Shown here piece after piece: positions 53,482 to 59,330 of a DNA stretch of 64,000 nucleotides. Source of the DNA: Acidobacteriota bacterium (GTDB lineage Bacteria; Acidobacteriota; Terriglobia; Bryobacterales; Bryobacteraceae); NCBI GenBank assembly GCA_025353165.1, contig JANXRE010000106.1:1-64000 (forward strand). The letters are read 5' to 3'. A model generated the notes under the pieces. It did not search any database. It was not told where the DNA came from and saw nothing but the letters and a program-made list of their open reading frames with translations. Within the stretch, counting starts at the first letter, position 1, and every line of letters starts with the position of its first letter. The position numbers and the translations under genes were made by a program.

Positions 53482-54000
53482 ATGATACGCAAGCCCGCGC
53501 CGTTGGAGTACTCCGCGCTGATGCAATACGCCGTGCGAACGGTTGCCGGCCGCGGCTTGTCTGCTTCGGAGATGCGGCGGAAACTCGCGCTCCGGGCGGC
53601 GCAACGGGAGGACGTCGATCGCGTCGTTGCCGCCCTGCAGGACGCCGGGGCCTTGAACGATGAGCGATTCGCCGAATCGTTTGCGGCATCGCGCCTAGAG
53701 AACCGGGGTTTCGGGCGCATGCGGGTCCTCCGCGATTTACGCGCCCGGCAAGTGTCTCCAAGAACCGCCGAAGAAGCCGTCACGTCGGCCTACGGCGAAA
53801 CCGACGAGACCGCCCTCATCGAGCACTATATCGCCAAGAAGTTTCGCGGTAAGGACATGCCCGTTTACCTGGCCGAAGAGAAGAACCTTGCGTCGGCATT
53901 CCGCAAGCTCCGTACAGCCGGCTTCAGTCCGGGCAACTCGATTCGGGTGTTGAAGAAGTATTCGCAGCGCGCGGAGGAATTGGAAGACACCGATTCTTAG
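53482..54000 (+). CDS. recX: Recombination regulator RecX
   Basis: 172 aa. Helical repeats of the RecX family: AVRTVAGRGLSASEMRRKLALRA, VDRVVAALQDAGALNDERFAESFAASRLENRGFGRMRVLRDLRARQVS. RecX inhibits or tunes RecA filaments. recA itself is not in the window. It is convergent with the topoisomerase-RecQ fusion (4 bp overlap), so two DNA-repair genes lie end to end; whether this reflects shared function is unknown. Confidence 0.9.
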   Translation: MIRKPAPLEYSALMQYAVRTVAGRGLSASEMRRKLALRAAQREDVDRVVAALQDAGALNDERFAESFAASRLENRGFGRMRVLRDLRARQVSPRTAEEAVTSAYGETDETALIEHYIAKKFRGKDMPVYLAEEKNLASAFRKLRTAGFSPGNSIRVLKKYSQRAEELEDTDS

Positions 54001-57000
54001 CCCCCCGCGGCGCCGAGCACCCGAAAGATCTGATTCCCGTACTTCTCGACAATCTTTAACCCGACGCCGGAGATCTCCAACAGCTCCGCGTCCGAGTGAG
54101 GCTGCATTTCCGCGATCGCCCGCAGAGCCTTGTCGGTGAGAATTCGGAACGCCGGCACGCCTTGTTTCTTGGCCTCCGCCAAGCGCCAGGACTTCAACGC
54201 GGCTTCGGCGAGTGCGGGGTTGGACGCTGCTCGTTTCACCGGCTCGGGCGCCGCGGCGATCCTGGGCGCGCGCGCCTTCTTCTTGCGCTTGCGCGGCTTT
54301 TCTTCGGCAATGACGTCGGCGGGGATGGCGACCGCCTCCACCGCTCCGTCTTCCCGTCCAAACCGCGTCAGATATGCTTTGCGGAACTCGATCGTTTTTC
54401 CATCCTTCTCAAAAGATGTATCCATCACTTCGATCAATCCGCCGCGGGCCATAGCGATGAGGAGATCCTCAAAGCCGCGCCGGTCCAGCGGCGAATTTTC
54501 GAACAGTTGCGTGTGCAGGCGGCCCGTCGCCACGCCGTCGCCACGCTTCAACCCATCGAGGATCTTTTGGATGTTTTCGCGGTCCACCGGATCGGGCGGG
54601 CGAAACGCCTGGCCCACCGCCGCTCCGGAATTGCAGAAATCGCAAACGCCGCAGCGGCGCCGCGAATCGGCGGTGTCGCCAAAGTATCTCACCAGCGCCA
54701 CCATCCGGCAGGTAGCGCCTTCGCAATACGAGAGCATCTTCTCAAACTGCGCCATCTTGTGCTCGCGCTGCGCTTCATAAGAGGGAAGCCAGTTCCCCGC
54801 GCCCCGGCTCAGGTTCTCGGCGTAATCCACCACGGCGCCGCCGTGGATCCAGAGCTTCTCCATCGCGGCGCCGAACGCCTCTTCGGGAAGACGGGTGCGG
54901 TTCTGCACCGCCTCCTTCGGCTGCGGCTCGGCCGTCAGGCAATCGAAGATGCGCGTCAGAACGGAGGGATCGGGATAATCGCGCTCGAAGAAATAGTCGT
55001 GGGTGAAGCGGTCCGAATAGGAATGCATCAGGACCGCGCGCGACGGCAGTCCATCGCGTCCGGCGCGGCCGATCTCCTGGTAGTAACCCTCGATGCTGCC
55101 CGGCAGCGCCGTGTGGATCACCGTGCGGATGTCGGGCTTGTCCACGCCCATGCCGAAGGCGATGGTTGCGACGATCACGTCCAGGCGGCCTTCGAGGAAG
55201 TCTTTTTGCACTTGCTCGCGGCGCTTTCCATCGAGTCCCGCGTGATATGCGTCCGCCGCGAAATCGCGCTGCAGTTCGAGCGCCAGCGCGTTCGAATCCT
55301 TGCGCCGGGGAACGTAGACGATCGCGGGCCTACGGCCATCGTCCTGGAGGATCTCCTGAGTCAGCGCGAAGCGCGCATCCTGCGAGGTCTTCACGATCTC
55401 GATGGCGATGTTGTCGCGTCGGAATCCGTGAATGAAATGTCTCGGCGCGAGAAGGCCGAGCTGTTTCGAGATATCGCTCTGCACCAGCGGCGTTGCGGTC
55501 GCCGTCAACGCGATGACGGGCGCGGGACGCAGAGCCGGAAGGTGTGCGCCGATGGTCCGGTAGTCCGGGCGGAAATCGTGCCCCCACTGCGAAATGCAAT
55601 GGGCCTCGTCAATCGCGATCAGGTGCGGCTTCCTTTTGGCGAGCATCTCCGGAAAGCCGCGCACGCGAAGGCGCTCGGGCGCGACGAAAAGAAAATCGAG
55701 CTTGCCCGCGAGGTATTGAATGCAGACTTCGCGCGAATCGGCCCGATCGCGGTTGGAATGGATTCGCTCGGTCGCGAACCCGAGCGCTTGCATTTTTGCG
55801 ACCTGGTCTTCCATCAACGCGATCAAAGGGCTGATCACCAGCGTCGTGCCGCCCAGCATGATACCGGGCAACTGGTAGCAGAGCGATTTGCCCGATCCCG
55901 TCGGCATCACGAGCAGCGCGTCCTGGCCGGAGGTCAGGACGCGGCAAACCTCTTCCTGGTTGGGCCGGAAGGACTCGAAGCGAAAGGACTTTTGCAAAAC
56001 CTCCAGCAGCGAACTACCGTCCGGAACAGTGCTCCTGGCGGGCGCGACAGACGCCGCCGGCGCCGGAGAAATTCCCGCCTTCCCGACCACCTCCGTCACG
56101 TACTCCTCGATCCCCTTGATGAACGGCCCAAGCTGCGCCTGCCCGCGCTCGATGCGCTTCAGGTAAGCTTCCCATTGCCCGGTCATCGCCGGACTCTTGA
56201 CCTCGGGATGCACGATTCCGATCAGGCGAATACCCTTCTCGGTCGCTTCGATACTCTTGCCGCGACGCTCGATGAACCCGCGTTTCAGCAGTACCTCGAT
56301 AATCTGAGCTCTCGTCGCGGGCGTTCCGAGACCGCTGTCCTTCATCGCGTCCGAGAGTTCTTTGTCGTCCAGTGTCTTGCCCGCCGTCTCCATCGCGGTC
56401 AGGAGCGTGGCGTCGTTGAGCCGTTTGGGCGGGCGCGTCTTCTTCGCCAGAGCCTCAACTTCGACGATCGTTTGCCGCTGGCCTTCCGCCAGGTTCGGAG
56501 GCAGCGCCTGCCCTTCGTCGACGGGCGTTTCATCGCTCTCCCCGCCGCGTTTCGGCTTCTTGCGCTCCTTTTTCACGCCGCCGATGTCGAGCGCTTTCCA
56601 GCCGGTTTGCTGGATGGCCGTGCCGGTCGTGTGGAACCGGTCATCCGAGCCACTCCTTACGAGGGTGATAACGGTGGTGACGGACCAGATGTAGTCGTCG
56701 TGCCACGCAGACAGCAGGCGGCGGCACACGAGATCGAAGATTCTTTGTTCGTCCTGGTCGAGCGAGGCTCTAGCGGGATCGACGCCGGTCGGAATGATCG
56801 CGTGGTGATCCGATACTTTCGTGTCGTCGATGTAACGGCGGCCCAGCGGGCGTTCGCCTGTTCCCGGCGCGAGCAGGCTTTCGTATTCGCCCCGGATGGA
56901 ATCCACGATGCGGGGCAACGTGCCCGCGACATCCTGCGATAGATGACGGCTGTCCGTGCGCGGGTAGCTGATCAGCTTGTGCCGCTCGTATAAGGACTGC

Positions 57001-57932
57001 GCAAGTTCGAGCGTCCGCAGCGCGCTGAATCCGTACAAGCGGTTCCCGTGCCGCTGTAGTTCGGTGAGATCGTACAGCAAAGGCGGAGCCATCCGCTTAG
57101 TTTGAGCTTCAATCTTCTCGATCCCGGCGTCGCCGCCGCGGACGCGCTCGACCACGGCGCGCGCTTCTTCGCCAGAAGCGGGAAGCTTCATCGCGGCGTC
57201 CAGCGGCTCCACTCCCGCCTGGAACCATATCCCGTCGTAGCTCTGCCCCTCGCGCGGCGAGAACGTGGCCGCCACGTTGAAATAGTCTTCGGGAACAAAA
57301 CTCTGAATTGCGAGTTCCCGTTCGACGATCATCGCGAGCGTCGGCGTCTGCACCCGCCCCACCGACAGGTCCTCGCGGCACGCCAGCGTATAAGCGCGCG
57401 AGAGGTTCATCCCGACCAGCCAGTCGGCCCGGCTGCGTCCGCGCGCGGCGTCTGCGAGAGCGTCGTAATCGGTTCCGTCGCGCAGTTTGGCGAAGCCGTT
57501 GCGAATGGCCTCGGGAGTCAGCGAGGAGATCCACAGCCGTTGGACGGGCTTGTCGGCCCCGGCCGCTTCGTAGATGTACCGGAAGATGAGCTCCCCCTCG
57601 CGCCCCGCGTCCGTCGCGCAGATCACCGCCGAAATCTTCGGCGACGTGAGGATCCTCCGGACGACCTCGAATTGATCCTTGGTCTGCTCGCCGATCACCA
57701 GCGGCCACGACTCCGGCAGCATCGGCAACTGCTCCGGTCGCCAGGCACGCCACTCCGGCCGGATCTCGCCCGGCTGCGCGAGCGCCACCAGGTGACCGAT
57801 GGCCCACGTCACGACGTACCCGTCGCCGTGCAGGAAGCCTTCGCCCCGTTTGGTGGCGTTAAGAACTCGAGCGATGTCACGGGCCACCGACGGTTTTTCG
57901 GCGACGACCGCGACACTGGTCTGCGTCGCCAT
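53997..57932 (-). CDS. Topoisomerase III fused to RecQ helicase with HRDC domain
   Basis: 1311 aa, no frameshift. Residues 1-615 are a type IA topoisomerase III: E12 in AEKPS, CATDAGREGE (105-114) of the Toprim site, and active-site Y323 in ISYPRTDS. No C-terminal zinc ribbons. A ~25-residue Ala/Pro linker leads to a RecQ helicase (640-1105): Walker A MPTGSGKS (676-683), DEAH (775-778) within the RecQ aromatic-rich loop, QEIGRAGRDG motif VI (952-961), and zinc cysteines C1075, C1094, C1097, C1100. A winged-helix-like part follows, then a KPRKRKKK linker (1212-1219) and HRDC domain (1240-1308). RecQ unwinds and Top3 passes strands; together they dissolve double Holliday junctions. Here both are one chain. 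Confidence 0.92.
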   Translation of the reverse strand: MATQTSVAVVAEKPSVARDIARVLNATKRGEGFLHGDGYVVTWAIGHLVALAQPGEIRPEWRAWRPEQLPMLPESWPLVIGEQTKDQFEVVRRILTSPKISAVICATDAGREGELIFRYIYEAAGADKPVQRLWISSLTPEAIRNGFAKLRDGTDYDALADAARGRSRADWLVGMNLSRAYTLACREDLSVGRVQTPTLAMIVERELAIQSFVPEDYFNVAATFSPREGQSYDGIWFQAGVEPLDAAMKLPASGEEARAVVERVRGGDAGIEKIEAQTKRMAPPLLYDLTELQRHGNRLYGFSALRTLELAQSLYERHKLISYPRTDSRHLSQDVAGTLPRIVDSIRGEYESLLAPGTGERPLGRRYIDDTKVSDHHAIIPTGVDPARASLDQDEQRIFDLVCRRLLSAWHDDYIWSVTTVITLVRSGSDDRFHTTGTAIQQTGWKALDIGGVKKERKKPKRGGESDETPVDEGQALPPNLAEGQRQTIVEVEALAKKTRPPKRLNDATLLTAMETAGKTLDDKELSDAMKDSGLGTPATRAQIIEVLLKRGFIERRGKSIEATEKGIRLIGIVHPEVKSPAMTGQWEAYLKRIERGQAQLGPFIKGIEEYVTEVVGKAGISPAPAASVAPARSTVPDGSSLLEVLQKSFRFESFRPNQEEVCRVLTSGQDALLVMPTGSGKSLCYQLPGIMLGGTTLVISPLIALMEDQVAKMQALGFATERIHSNRDRADSREVCIQYLAGKLDFLFVAPERLRVRGFPEMLAKRKPHLIAIDEAHCISQWGHDFRPDYRTIGAHLPALRPAPVIALTATATPLVQSDISKQLGLLAPRHFIHGFRRDNIAIEIVKTSQDARFALTQEILQDDGRRPAIVYVPRRKDSNALALELQRDFAADAYHAGLDGKRREQVQKDFLEGRLDVIVATIAFGMGVDKPDIRTVIHTALPGSIEGYYQEIGRAGRDGLPSRAVLMHSYSDRFTHDYFFERDYPDPSVLTRIFDCLTAEPQPKEAVQNRTRLPEEAFGAAMEKLWIHGGAVVDYAENLSRGAGNWLPSYEAQREHKMAQFEKMLSYCEGATCRMVALVRYFGDTADSRRRCGVCDFCNSGAAVGQAFRPPDPVDRENIQKILDGLKRGDGVATGRLHTQLFENSPLDRRGFEDLLIAMARGGLIEVMDTSFEKDGKTIEFRKAYLTRFGREDGAVEAVAIPADVIAEEKPRKRKKKARAPRIAAAPEPVKRAASNPALAEAALKSWRLAEAKKQGVPAFRILTDKALRAIAEMQPHSDAELLEISGVGLKIVEKYGNQIFRVLGAAGG

Positions 57933-57969: not shown

Positions 57970-58350
57970 GTGTTATTTAGTGCCGATCCGACACAGAGGT
58001 TCTCTTTCAGAGCCGGGGATTACATACGCTACCGGCCGTCGTATCCCCGCGGCGTGATGGACGTCCTCGCGAGCGAATGCGGGCTATCGGCGGCATCCAG
58101 CGTTGCCGGCATCGGGTCCGGGACCGGCCTGCTTGCTAGACTATTTCTGAAACTCGGATGCCCGGTTCCTGGCGTCGAACCGAACGTGGAAATGCGGCTT
58201 GCCGGCGAGCGGATGCTGCGCTCGTTCGATCGTTTTCACAGCGTGAATGGGCGCGCCGAGCATACGACGCTGCCGCCGGCAAACATGGACTTCGTCGCGG
58301 CGGGGCAGGCTTTCCATTTCCGCGCCGGAGTGCTTCACGTATCGCAATGA
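57970..58350 (+). pseudogene. N-terminal half of a SAM-dependent methyltransferase
   Basis: About 126 residues from a likely GTG at 57970: SADPTQRFSFRAGDYIRYRPSYP.., GIGSGTGLLARLFLKLGC (motif I, first Asp replaced by Gly), GVEPNVEMRLAGERML, and NMDFVAAGQAFHF. Homologues continue after AGQAFHW for another ~120 residues with the substrate lid; here the frame ends nine residues later at 58350. The last codons (RAGVLHVSQ) are unrelated. It looks like a truncated gene that now ends in an ATGA overlap with the next gene and may survive only as a leader for its translation. Confidence 0.65.
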
Positions 58351-59330
58351 AATCCAAATACACCCGCTTCGACCGTCGCCGCCTGCGTTTGGCCCCGCTG
58401 GCGTCCAGAACACACGACCTTTCGATCGAGCATTGGCTTGGGCTCGAAGATCCCGCGCCGCCCTTCGAACACGCTGATCTTTCGATCCTGGCGGAACGCA
58501 TCGAGCAGGCCCGGGAACGAGGCGCGGCTCGCATCCTTATGTTTGGCGCTCACCTGCTGCGGGCCGGAGTGAGCCGCCACATCGTCGATCTCATGAAGCG
58601 CGGCGCATTCACCCACATCGCCATGAACGGCGCGGGCATCATTCACGACTTCGAACTGGCGATGATCGGCGCGACCACGGAGAGCGTGGCGCGCTACATC
58701 CGCACCGGCGAGTTCGGACTCTGGCGCGAGACGGGCATCCTCAACGACTGGATTCGTGAGGCCGGCGGTCTTGGCCTGGGCGAAGCAGTCGGCCGCAAAA
58801 TCCTCGAGAGCGATTTCCCGCATCGGAAGTTGAGCGTCCTCGCCGCTGCTTACGAGTTTTCCGTTCCGGCGACAGTCCACGTTGGCATCGGTTACGACAT
58901 CATCCACGAGCATCCGAACTGCGATGGCGCGGCGATCGGCGCGGCCAGTTACGAAGATTTCCTGATGTTTACGAACAGCGTCGAGAATCTGGAGGGCGGG
59001 GTCATGGTGAGTTTCGGCTCGGCGGTCATGGCGCCGGAGATCTATCTTAAGGCGCTTTCCATGGCGCGCAACGTCGCGCGCCAGGCGAGAAAGGAAATTC
59101 GTAACTTCACCACCGCCGTGTTCGACTTAATGCCAATCCCGGGAGACTTCCGCCGCGAACTTCCGAAGACAGAGCCGGCTTACTATTTCCGGCCAATTAA
59201 GACTATATTAATTCGCACCGTCGCCGATGGAGGCGAGAGTTACTATTTCAGCGGCGACCATCGCGCCACGTTCCCGGCTTTGTGGCGGGCAGTTACCCGA
59301 TCGGGCCTTCCCCCTGCGACAGGGCAGTGA
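58347..59330 (+). CDS. Deoxyhypusine-synthase-like protein
   Basis: 327 aa from the ATG at 58347, inside the stop of the preceding fragment. The Rossmann-like body includes ILMFGAHLLRAGVSRHIVDLMKRG, HIAMNGAGIIHDFELAMIGATTESVARYI, and AATVHVGIGYDIIHEHP (reads SVPATVHVGIG..). The AMNGAGxxHDFE segment resembles the NAD-binding TAGGIEEDF block of deoxyhypusine synthases. I cannot find an obvious active-site lysine equivalent, so modification of a translation factor is not implied. Bacterial members may use other amine donors. Overlaps the convergent ABC permease by 38 bp. Confidence 0.6.
   Translation: MKSKYTRFDRRRLRLAPLASRTHDLSIEHWLGLEDPAPPFEHADLSILAERIEQARERGAARILMFGAHLLRAGVSRHIVDLMKRGAFTHIAMNGAGIIHDFELAMIGATTESVARYIRTGEFGLWRETGILNDWIREAGGLGLGEAVGRKILESDFPHRKLSVLAAAYEFSVPATVHVGIGYDIIHEHPNCDGAAIGAASYEDFLMFTNSVENLEGGVMVSFGSAVMAPEIYLKALSMARNVARQARKEIRNFTTAVFDLMPIPGDFRRELPKTEPAYYFRPIKTILIRTVADGGESYYFSGDHRATFPALWRAVTRSGLPPATGQ

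Follow-up and report, generated by a model that had tools for sequence, protein, structure and literature searches.

Do the topoisomerase III (Top3) and RecQ domains found in this acidobacterial genome form one protein, and if so, do they act together? In the window, by which we mean the whole 64-kb stretch of DNA that was analysed, the gene lies at 53997..57932 on the (-) strand. It has an ATG start, 1311 codons plus the stop codon and zero internal stops. The initial annotation had read Top3 and RecQ in one frame, which is borne out by the 1311-aa ORF, Pfam and NCBIfam. Topoisomerase III occupies approximately residues 1-620, followed by a linker of 22 aa, RecQ from residue 643 to approximately 1190 and an HRDC domain.

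All features named here are on the (-) strand and all Pfam matches are above their curated cut-offs. The Toprim domain (residues 8-137, 57522..57911) with E12, D108 and E112 was assigned by Pfam and conservation. Topoisom_bac marks the type IA topoisomerase core (residues 156-605, 56118..57467), in which the active-site tyrosine Y323 of the SYPRTDS motif was located by alignment at 56964..56966. After the probably disordered linker (residues 621-642, 56007..56072) comes the RecQ two-lobe helicase core (residues 643-985, 54978..56006) with K682, D775, R956 and R959, assigned by Pfam (DEAD 656-814, Helicase_C 857-961), alignment and structure match. An extra module in the interval between helicase and zinc site (residues 987-1046, 54795..54974) is winged-helix-like, judged from secondary structure only. 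It is followed by the RecQ zinc-binding module (RecQ_Zn_bind, residues 1052-1101, 54630..54779) with C1075, C1094, C1097 and C1100, and past the zinc site by a winged-helix region at the RQC position (residues 1114-1189, 54366..54593), which was recognised by structure match and is not listed as Pfam RQC. The HRDC domain (residues 1245-1305, 54018..54200) is present as the initial annotation had it, but it is not a defining feature of the fusion, as Pfam did not find it in one Nannocystis and one Competibacteraceae member that were scanned. Pfam found no C-terminal zinc ribbons on the Top3 half, in agreement with the earlier description.

The Top3 half passes the curated NCBIfam cut-offs of two topoisomerase III models, the DNA topoisomerase 3 subfamily NF005829 (674.8 bits, cut-off 597) and TIGR01056 (586.4, cut-off 515.75). 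The RecQ half passes recQ_fam TIGR00614 (391.6 bits, cut-off 219.8) and does not reach the canonical RecQ equivalog TIGR01389 (486.1 versus 640.2). Judged by these profiles, the second half is assigned to the RecQ family, but not to the canonical RecQ equivalog.

Reverse gyrase likewise carries helicase-like and type IA topoisomerase domains on one chain, and the fusion could be its analogue, with the same two enzyme classes joined to set supercoiling. The reverse gyrase model rgy (TIGR01054) does match weakly, but its 88 bits are far under the cut-off of 471.7. Furthermore, the domain order of reverse gyrase is opposite to that of the fusion, where the helicase is C-terminal, its helicase is not of the RecQ type, and the linker of the fusion varies 17-fold in length. 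We regard such an analogue as very improbable.

Aligned with E. coli TopB, the Top3 half has the residues E12, K13, D108, E112, Y323 and R325, and aligned with E. coli RecQ, the second half has Q659, K682, D775, E776, H778, R956 and R959, all of which we take to have their usual catalytic roles. The RecQ half also has the aromatic-rich loop and the zinc cysteines 1075, 1094, 1097 and 1100. Conservation was counted over 53 fused-type alignment rows, made up of 51 one-frame proteins that contain both halves, the contig-split fusion of genome G016 and the frame-split one of G038. D108, E112, Y323 and R325 are kept in 53 of 53 Top3 rows, E12 and K13 in 52 with a gap in the remaining row, and all ATPase residues checked in 53 of 53 RecQ rows. 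The four zinc cysteines are found in 50, 47, 47 and 47 of the 53 rows; the rest are gaps, with some loci ending there. The catalytic motifs listed in the initial annotation are therefore present for Y323, Walker, the zinc cysteines and E12, D108 and E112, but not for the third Toprim acid of E. coli, in whose place there is a glycine (G110), as in all 53 fused-type and 20 of 21 standalone Top3 rows. The segment which presumably corresponds to the decatenation loop of E. coli topoisomerase III, whose position there we assume, has 22 aa compared to 23 in E. coli (medians: 23 in fused, 17 in standalone proteins) and is unlike it in sequence.

In the predicted model of residues 1-1200 (mean pLDDT 89, pTM 0.56), each half is well modelled, but no confident fixed orientation or contact between the halves is predicted, and linker residues 622-634 have a pLDDT <50. 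The best match of the modelled Top3 half is E. coli topoisomerase III (Foldseek E 1.6e-47). RecQ catalytic cores head the structure matches of the second half with Z of about 27-31, including D. radiodurans 4q48 (Z 30.7, rmsd 6.6 Å over 468 residues) and E. coli 1oyy (Z 27.9). Ahead of the zinc site the RecQ half has approximately 60 additional residues (113 versus about 50), which contain the winged-helix-like module. This segment has 97-117 residues in 52 of the 53 fused-type rows and 105-122 residues in five of 18 standalone ones.

Among the 51 fused proteins, the linker between the halves ranges from 22 to 375 aa, contains at most one cysteine and is rich in Pro, Ala, Ser, Thr, Lys, Arg, Glu and Gln. 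A dN/dS could be computed for it in seven of eight fused pairs and exceeds the values of both halves in each of these, in one of them by a narrow margin. Since it is variable in length, of low confidence in the model and fast-evolving, we see it as a tether and not as a joint. From their length we had guessed that the long myxobacterial linkers hold zinc ribbons, which was rejected given the cysteine count and the lack of a Pfam match in the locus L094.

A long, variable and fast-evolving linker and a model without confident contact between the halves are also what one would expect if the two enzymes carried out separate reactions and the fusion, without coupling them mechanically, only ensured that they are made in equal dose and inherited jointly. 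If co-expression were all, RecQ might also be translated separately; an internal start codon with a Shine-Dalgarno-like site was found in the linker of just 12 of the 51 fused proteins, so separate translation of RecQ is not conserved and was rejected.

The initial annotation left open whether the fusion is general or rare, and named its absence from relatives as the result that would count against it. Same-genus genome G001 has the fusion in one 1353-aa frame with 73% identity. Our sample of near relatives comprised 61 genomes, 37 from the window's own family (f1) and 18 from another family of the same order (f3). In f1 the fusion is present in one long frame in 14 of 37 genomes, and in four more (G016, G019, G020 and G024) it is interrupted, either by contig ends or by a linker frame break; in G016 the contig break falls within the linker. 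One further f1 genome, G018, has a fusion-type Top3 without RecQ after it, on a 9.2-kb contig. In f3, 11 of 18 genomes have the fusion in one frame. Of the others, it is split in G038, fragmentary in G055, and in G053 the RecQ half lies in a 757-aa frame; no fusion was found in G054, which is 74% complete.

Frame breaks in the linker or Top3 half were observed at L196 (G038), L197 (G020), L077 and L082 and may be errors, true splits or pseudogenes. Two loci have especially long fusion frames, L192 (G245) with 1734 aa and L193 (G008) with 1450 aa. The match of L192 to the window protein is interrupted between residues 427 and 430, with approximately 500 nt extra in-frame within the Top3 half.

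As the window's genome (G000) is in 200 contigs, one could suspect an assembly or frame artefact. The same junction occurs, however, in the same genus and family and in four strain or isolate genomes, one of them a complete chromosome; with these independent assemblies an artefact is ruled out and its probability is next to nil. The four, which are the members listed that are strains or isolates rather than metagenome-assembled genomes (MAGs), are Nannocystis poenicansa FL3, whose complete chromosome has a 1628-aa fusion frame, Nannocystis sp. RBIL2, Corallococcus sicarius and Corallococcus sp. AS-1-6.

In the wider samples, counts refer to a match to the Top3 half in a long frame, and the RecQ half was confirmed only where loci were fetched. 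In the class sample of 299 genomes (frames of at least 1284 aa), the fusion is present in 29 of 67 f1 genomes, with six shorter incomplete frames in addition, in seven of eight f3 genomes and in one of 224 others (G158); in G058 it is present as well, but interrupted by contig ends. In the phylum sample of 347 genomes there were eight long frames and another interrupted by a contig end (G1091); the RecQ half was read in G000 and G1009 only. Outside Acidobacteriota, long frames were found in 29 of 235 genomes of Myxococcota (52-66% identity, frames of at least 1167 aa; RecQ half read in 11 of them), in one of 246 Planctomycetota, where G779 also holds fragments of a similar Top3, and in 26 of 40 genomes of the order of Competibacteraceae, plus four with shorter frames (RecQ half read in six of the 26). 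Where a fetched long frame of the class, Myxococcota and Competibacteraceae-order samples has a fusion-type Top3 match, RecQ sequence always comes after it. No RecQ-core match was found in long myxococcal frames with a less similar Top3 (G389, G588, G409, G484 and G564), of which G588 has C-terminal topoisomerase repeats, or in the frames of about 1065 aa in G914 and G1071.

A scan of the genomes of 84,980 species, which is not a census, gave at least 80 loci, some from genomes of the samples above. The 80 matches listed divide into 49 fusion-type loci and 31 standalone Top3s from Clostridia and related bacteria. In 42 of the 49, one frame runs through both halves, or through their beginnings as far as the contig end; three have frame breaks (L077, L081, L082), one is truncated (L084), and in L089, L092 and L102 the contig ends inside or just past Top3. 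One fusion-bearing MAG carries a Geobacter label. MAG labels of L068 (JAGRHI010000071.1), L074 and L096 may not match the place of the gene in the tree; the Competibacteraceae label of L068 is backed by the 26 of 40 genomes of that order. Carriage by phages or plasmids was not detected, with no record holding 80% of the query in one place among all 90 phage matches and the best 5000 plasmid records. The window's family and order thus often have the fusion, which is rare across Acidobacteriota and present in several phyla; this settles the question of its generality.

For the origin of the fusion, trees were built separately for the RecQ core (74 rows) and Top3 (77 rows); both are quick, unrooted trees without bootstraps, with long branches among the standalone proteins and L080. 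In each, a long branch with an SH-aLRT of 100 separates the fused-type rows from every standalone row sampled. RecQ-only genes of genus g42 and truncated genes of Acidobacteriaceae, both described below, fall inside the fused side. With one fully supported fused group in the tree of each half, the simplest reading is that the two were joined once, long ago. Distances in the two halves are correlated (r 0.76, 51 proteins), and none of 2000 permutations gave as high a value. In both trees the proteins of the Competibacteraceae order cluster with a single protein from Acidobacteriota (L090), and that of Planctomicrobium clusters with a Deltaproteobacteria-labelled MAG (L074); the repetition of these cross-phylum groupings suggests transfer of the whole gene between phyla. 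In eight of eight fused orthologue pairs, dN/dS is 0.075-0.27 for both halves, which are rough values as dS exceeds 1 in four pairs; by this measure both halves are under purifying selection. That one fused group persists as one frame over several phyla speaks against co-expression as the sole benefit.

Split and degenerate derivatives exist as well. In the f3 genomes G048, G049 and G050 (genus g42) the RecQ half stands alone behind a frame without Top3 match (L204:2046-4172, L205:3080-5218, L206:1799-3937). In G184, G203 and L084, whose assignment to Acidobacteriaceae rests on the label of L084, the gene stops after the first RecA lobe, at window residue ~827 (L190:2428-5052, L191:2528-5221, L084:2-2626). 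In this stub the Walker A motif is PDGKGKT, PDGAGKT or ADGAGKT, DEAH is changed to EEAE and the aromatic-rich loop is lost. Its dN/dS is 0.14-0.17, with 0.075-0.093 for Top3 (three pairs). As the stub is under purifying selection, it is a helicase lobe retained despite the loss of its motor, perhaps as an arm that binds DNA or protein. The persistence of the derivatives in g42, G018 and Acidobacteriaceae indicates that the pairing of RecQ and Top3 is not indispensable, and their survival counts in favour of mere co-expression.

The retained stub would also fit a targeting role, in which RecQ mainly parks Top3 on the single strands of forks for precatenane removal or rescue of converging forks and not for recombination, with unwinding secondary. 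A review reports work in favour of a role of E. coli topoisomerase III in replication and not in recombination (PMC7140829), in line with such targeting. The sampled full-length fusions nevertheless keep every ATPase residue checked, and we consider a primarily targeting role improbable.

Apart from the fusion, no Top3 was found in the window's genome, and no RecQ above the family cut-off. The other type IA topoisomerase match there is one 820-aa frame, which is taken to be TopA. In f1, with G018 set apart, four of the 18 fusion-bearing genomes have a standalone RecQ, compared to 14 of the 18 that lack the fusion (Fisher p 0.002, uncorrected for kinship); the other four of the latter, one of them 62% complete, have none. 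Fusion and standalone RecQ thus tend to exclude each other in f1, and such replacement is again less expected from co-expression, which we consider unlikely overall. The separate copies suggested earlier as a check were looked for in the window's genome, with no further topB found and no further recQ above cut-off, but 18 of 24 named fused genomes have an additional RecQ match above cut-off, the Corallococcus and Nannocystis members examined among them, and the fusion is the sole RecQ above it in six.

A RecX-like gene (53482-54000, (+) strand) is convergent with the fusion and overlaps its 3' end by 4 bases, and upstream of the fusion is a 390-aa frame (58158-59330, (+) strand) with no Pfam match at 0.001. 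We searched for six neighbours of the window gene in 72 fusion loci, many with flanks of ~1.5 kb. The ABC-transporter ATPase was the one neighbour with matches, in L069 and L085; the RecX-like gene was not found in the 72 loci. The flanks in same-genus G001 were compared over 18 kb. Gene neighbours are not shared among the fusion loci.

The closest parallels are Sgs1-Top3-Rmi1 and BLM-TOP3A-RMI1/2, in which a RecQ helicase is physically joined to topoisomerase III. The first 158 residues of Sgs1 are enough for Top3 binding and about 650 N-terminal residues are predicted to be disordered, according to PMC3905885. The parallel drawn in the initial annotation is upheld, as in both cases Top3 is at the N-terminal side of the helicase beside a stretch that is, in the fusion, probably disordered. 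The fusion differs in being covalent, in its bacterial-type Top3 and in having a linker in place of a docking peptide.

In E. coli the same two families form a proposed toposome, but recQ and topB are separate genes about 2.2 Mb apart. RecQ stimulates E. coli topoisomerase III in vitro, as cited in PMC7140829, a 2020 review that has a section on the lacking evidence for this toposome. PMC7140829 and PMC13244152 report no physical interaction and no joint action in vivo, and the latter, a 2026 paper, concludes that the partner of topoisomerase III is RecG and not RecQ. Such genetics without a RecQ-Top3 partnership would suit co-expression. PMC8191776 uses the term dissolvasome and counts E. coli topoisomerase III among the complex-formers. 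The partnership in E. coli is therefore disputed.

In Listeria, recQ and topB are adjacent on one strand, 23 bp apart, but they are unfused, in reversed order, and both are outside the fused group in the trees. One Listeria monocytogenes record, the 594-kb "plasmid 3" (L137, NZ_LR134400.1 440243-447757), carries guaB, recQ and topB and looks like a piece of chromosome. We did not find the fusion described in the open-access literature searched, which does not prove that no description exists.

From homology, co-inheritance and the eukaryotic parallel, we propose with a probability of about 0.62, in line with the function suggested in the initial annotation, that the fusion is a single-chain RecQ-topoisomerase III decatenase or dissolvase, its coupling of activities and its substrates being inferred. 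This reading is favoured by the intact active sites, the one fused group, the co-inheritance and purifying selection of both halves, the variable linker, the sole-copy status in the window's genome, the tendency to exclude standalone RecQ in f1 and the adjacent recQ-topB genes of Listeria. It is weakened by the split derivatives, the E. coli reports, the further RecQ in 18 of 24 genomes, the low confidence with which a decatenation loop can be assigned and the unshared neighbours.

RecQ-family helicases unwind in the 3'-5' direction. The RecQ motor would open the duplex at late replication or recombination intermediates and thereby expose the single-stranded DNA on which cleavage by a type IA topoisomerase depends. 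Flexibly tethered to the N-terminus of the motor, the Top3 half would then pass a strand through the gap and unlink the duplexes; candidate substrates are hemicatenanes, converging forks and double Holliday junctions. The tether may stand in for the contact between the disordered N-terminus of Sgs1/BLM and Top3, and RecQ for the usual C-terminal DNA-binding tail of Top3.

More tentatively, and with somewhat less than even odds, several phyla may possess a one-polypeptide dissolvase, perhaps without Rmi1, which, in hosts with no other RecQ or Top3, would serve as the chief unlinking pathway for intermediates of recombination and late replication, and Acidobacteriaceae a Top3 armed with a pseudo-helicase. 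If true, one gene would make what eukaryotes assemble from three or four proteins. With a single chain and fixed stoichiometry, the coupling of helicase and topoisomerase would be directly testable, and nature itself offers the split and pseudo-helicase forms for comparison. For E. coli the fusion decides nothing, but an old covalent RecQ-Top3 in several phyla speaks independently for a benefit of the pairing in some bacteria, where evolution has tied the two enzymes together.
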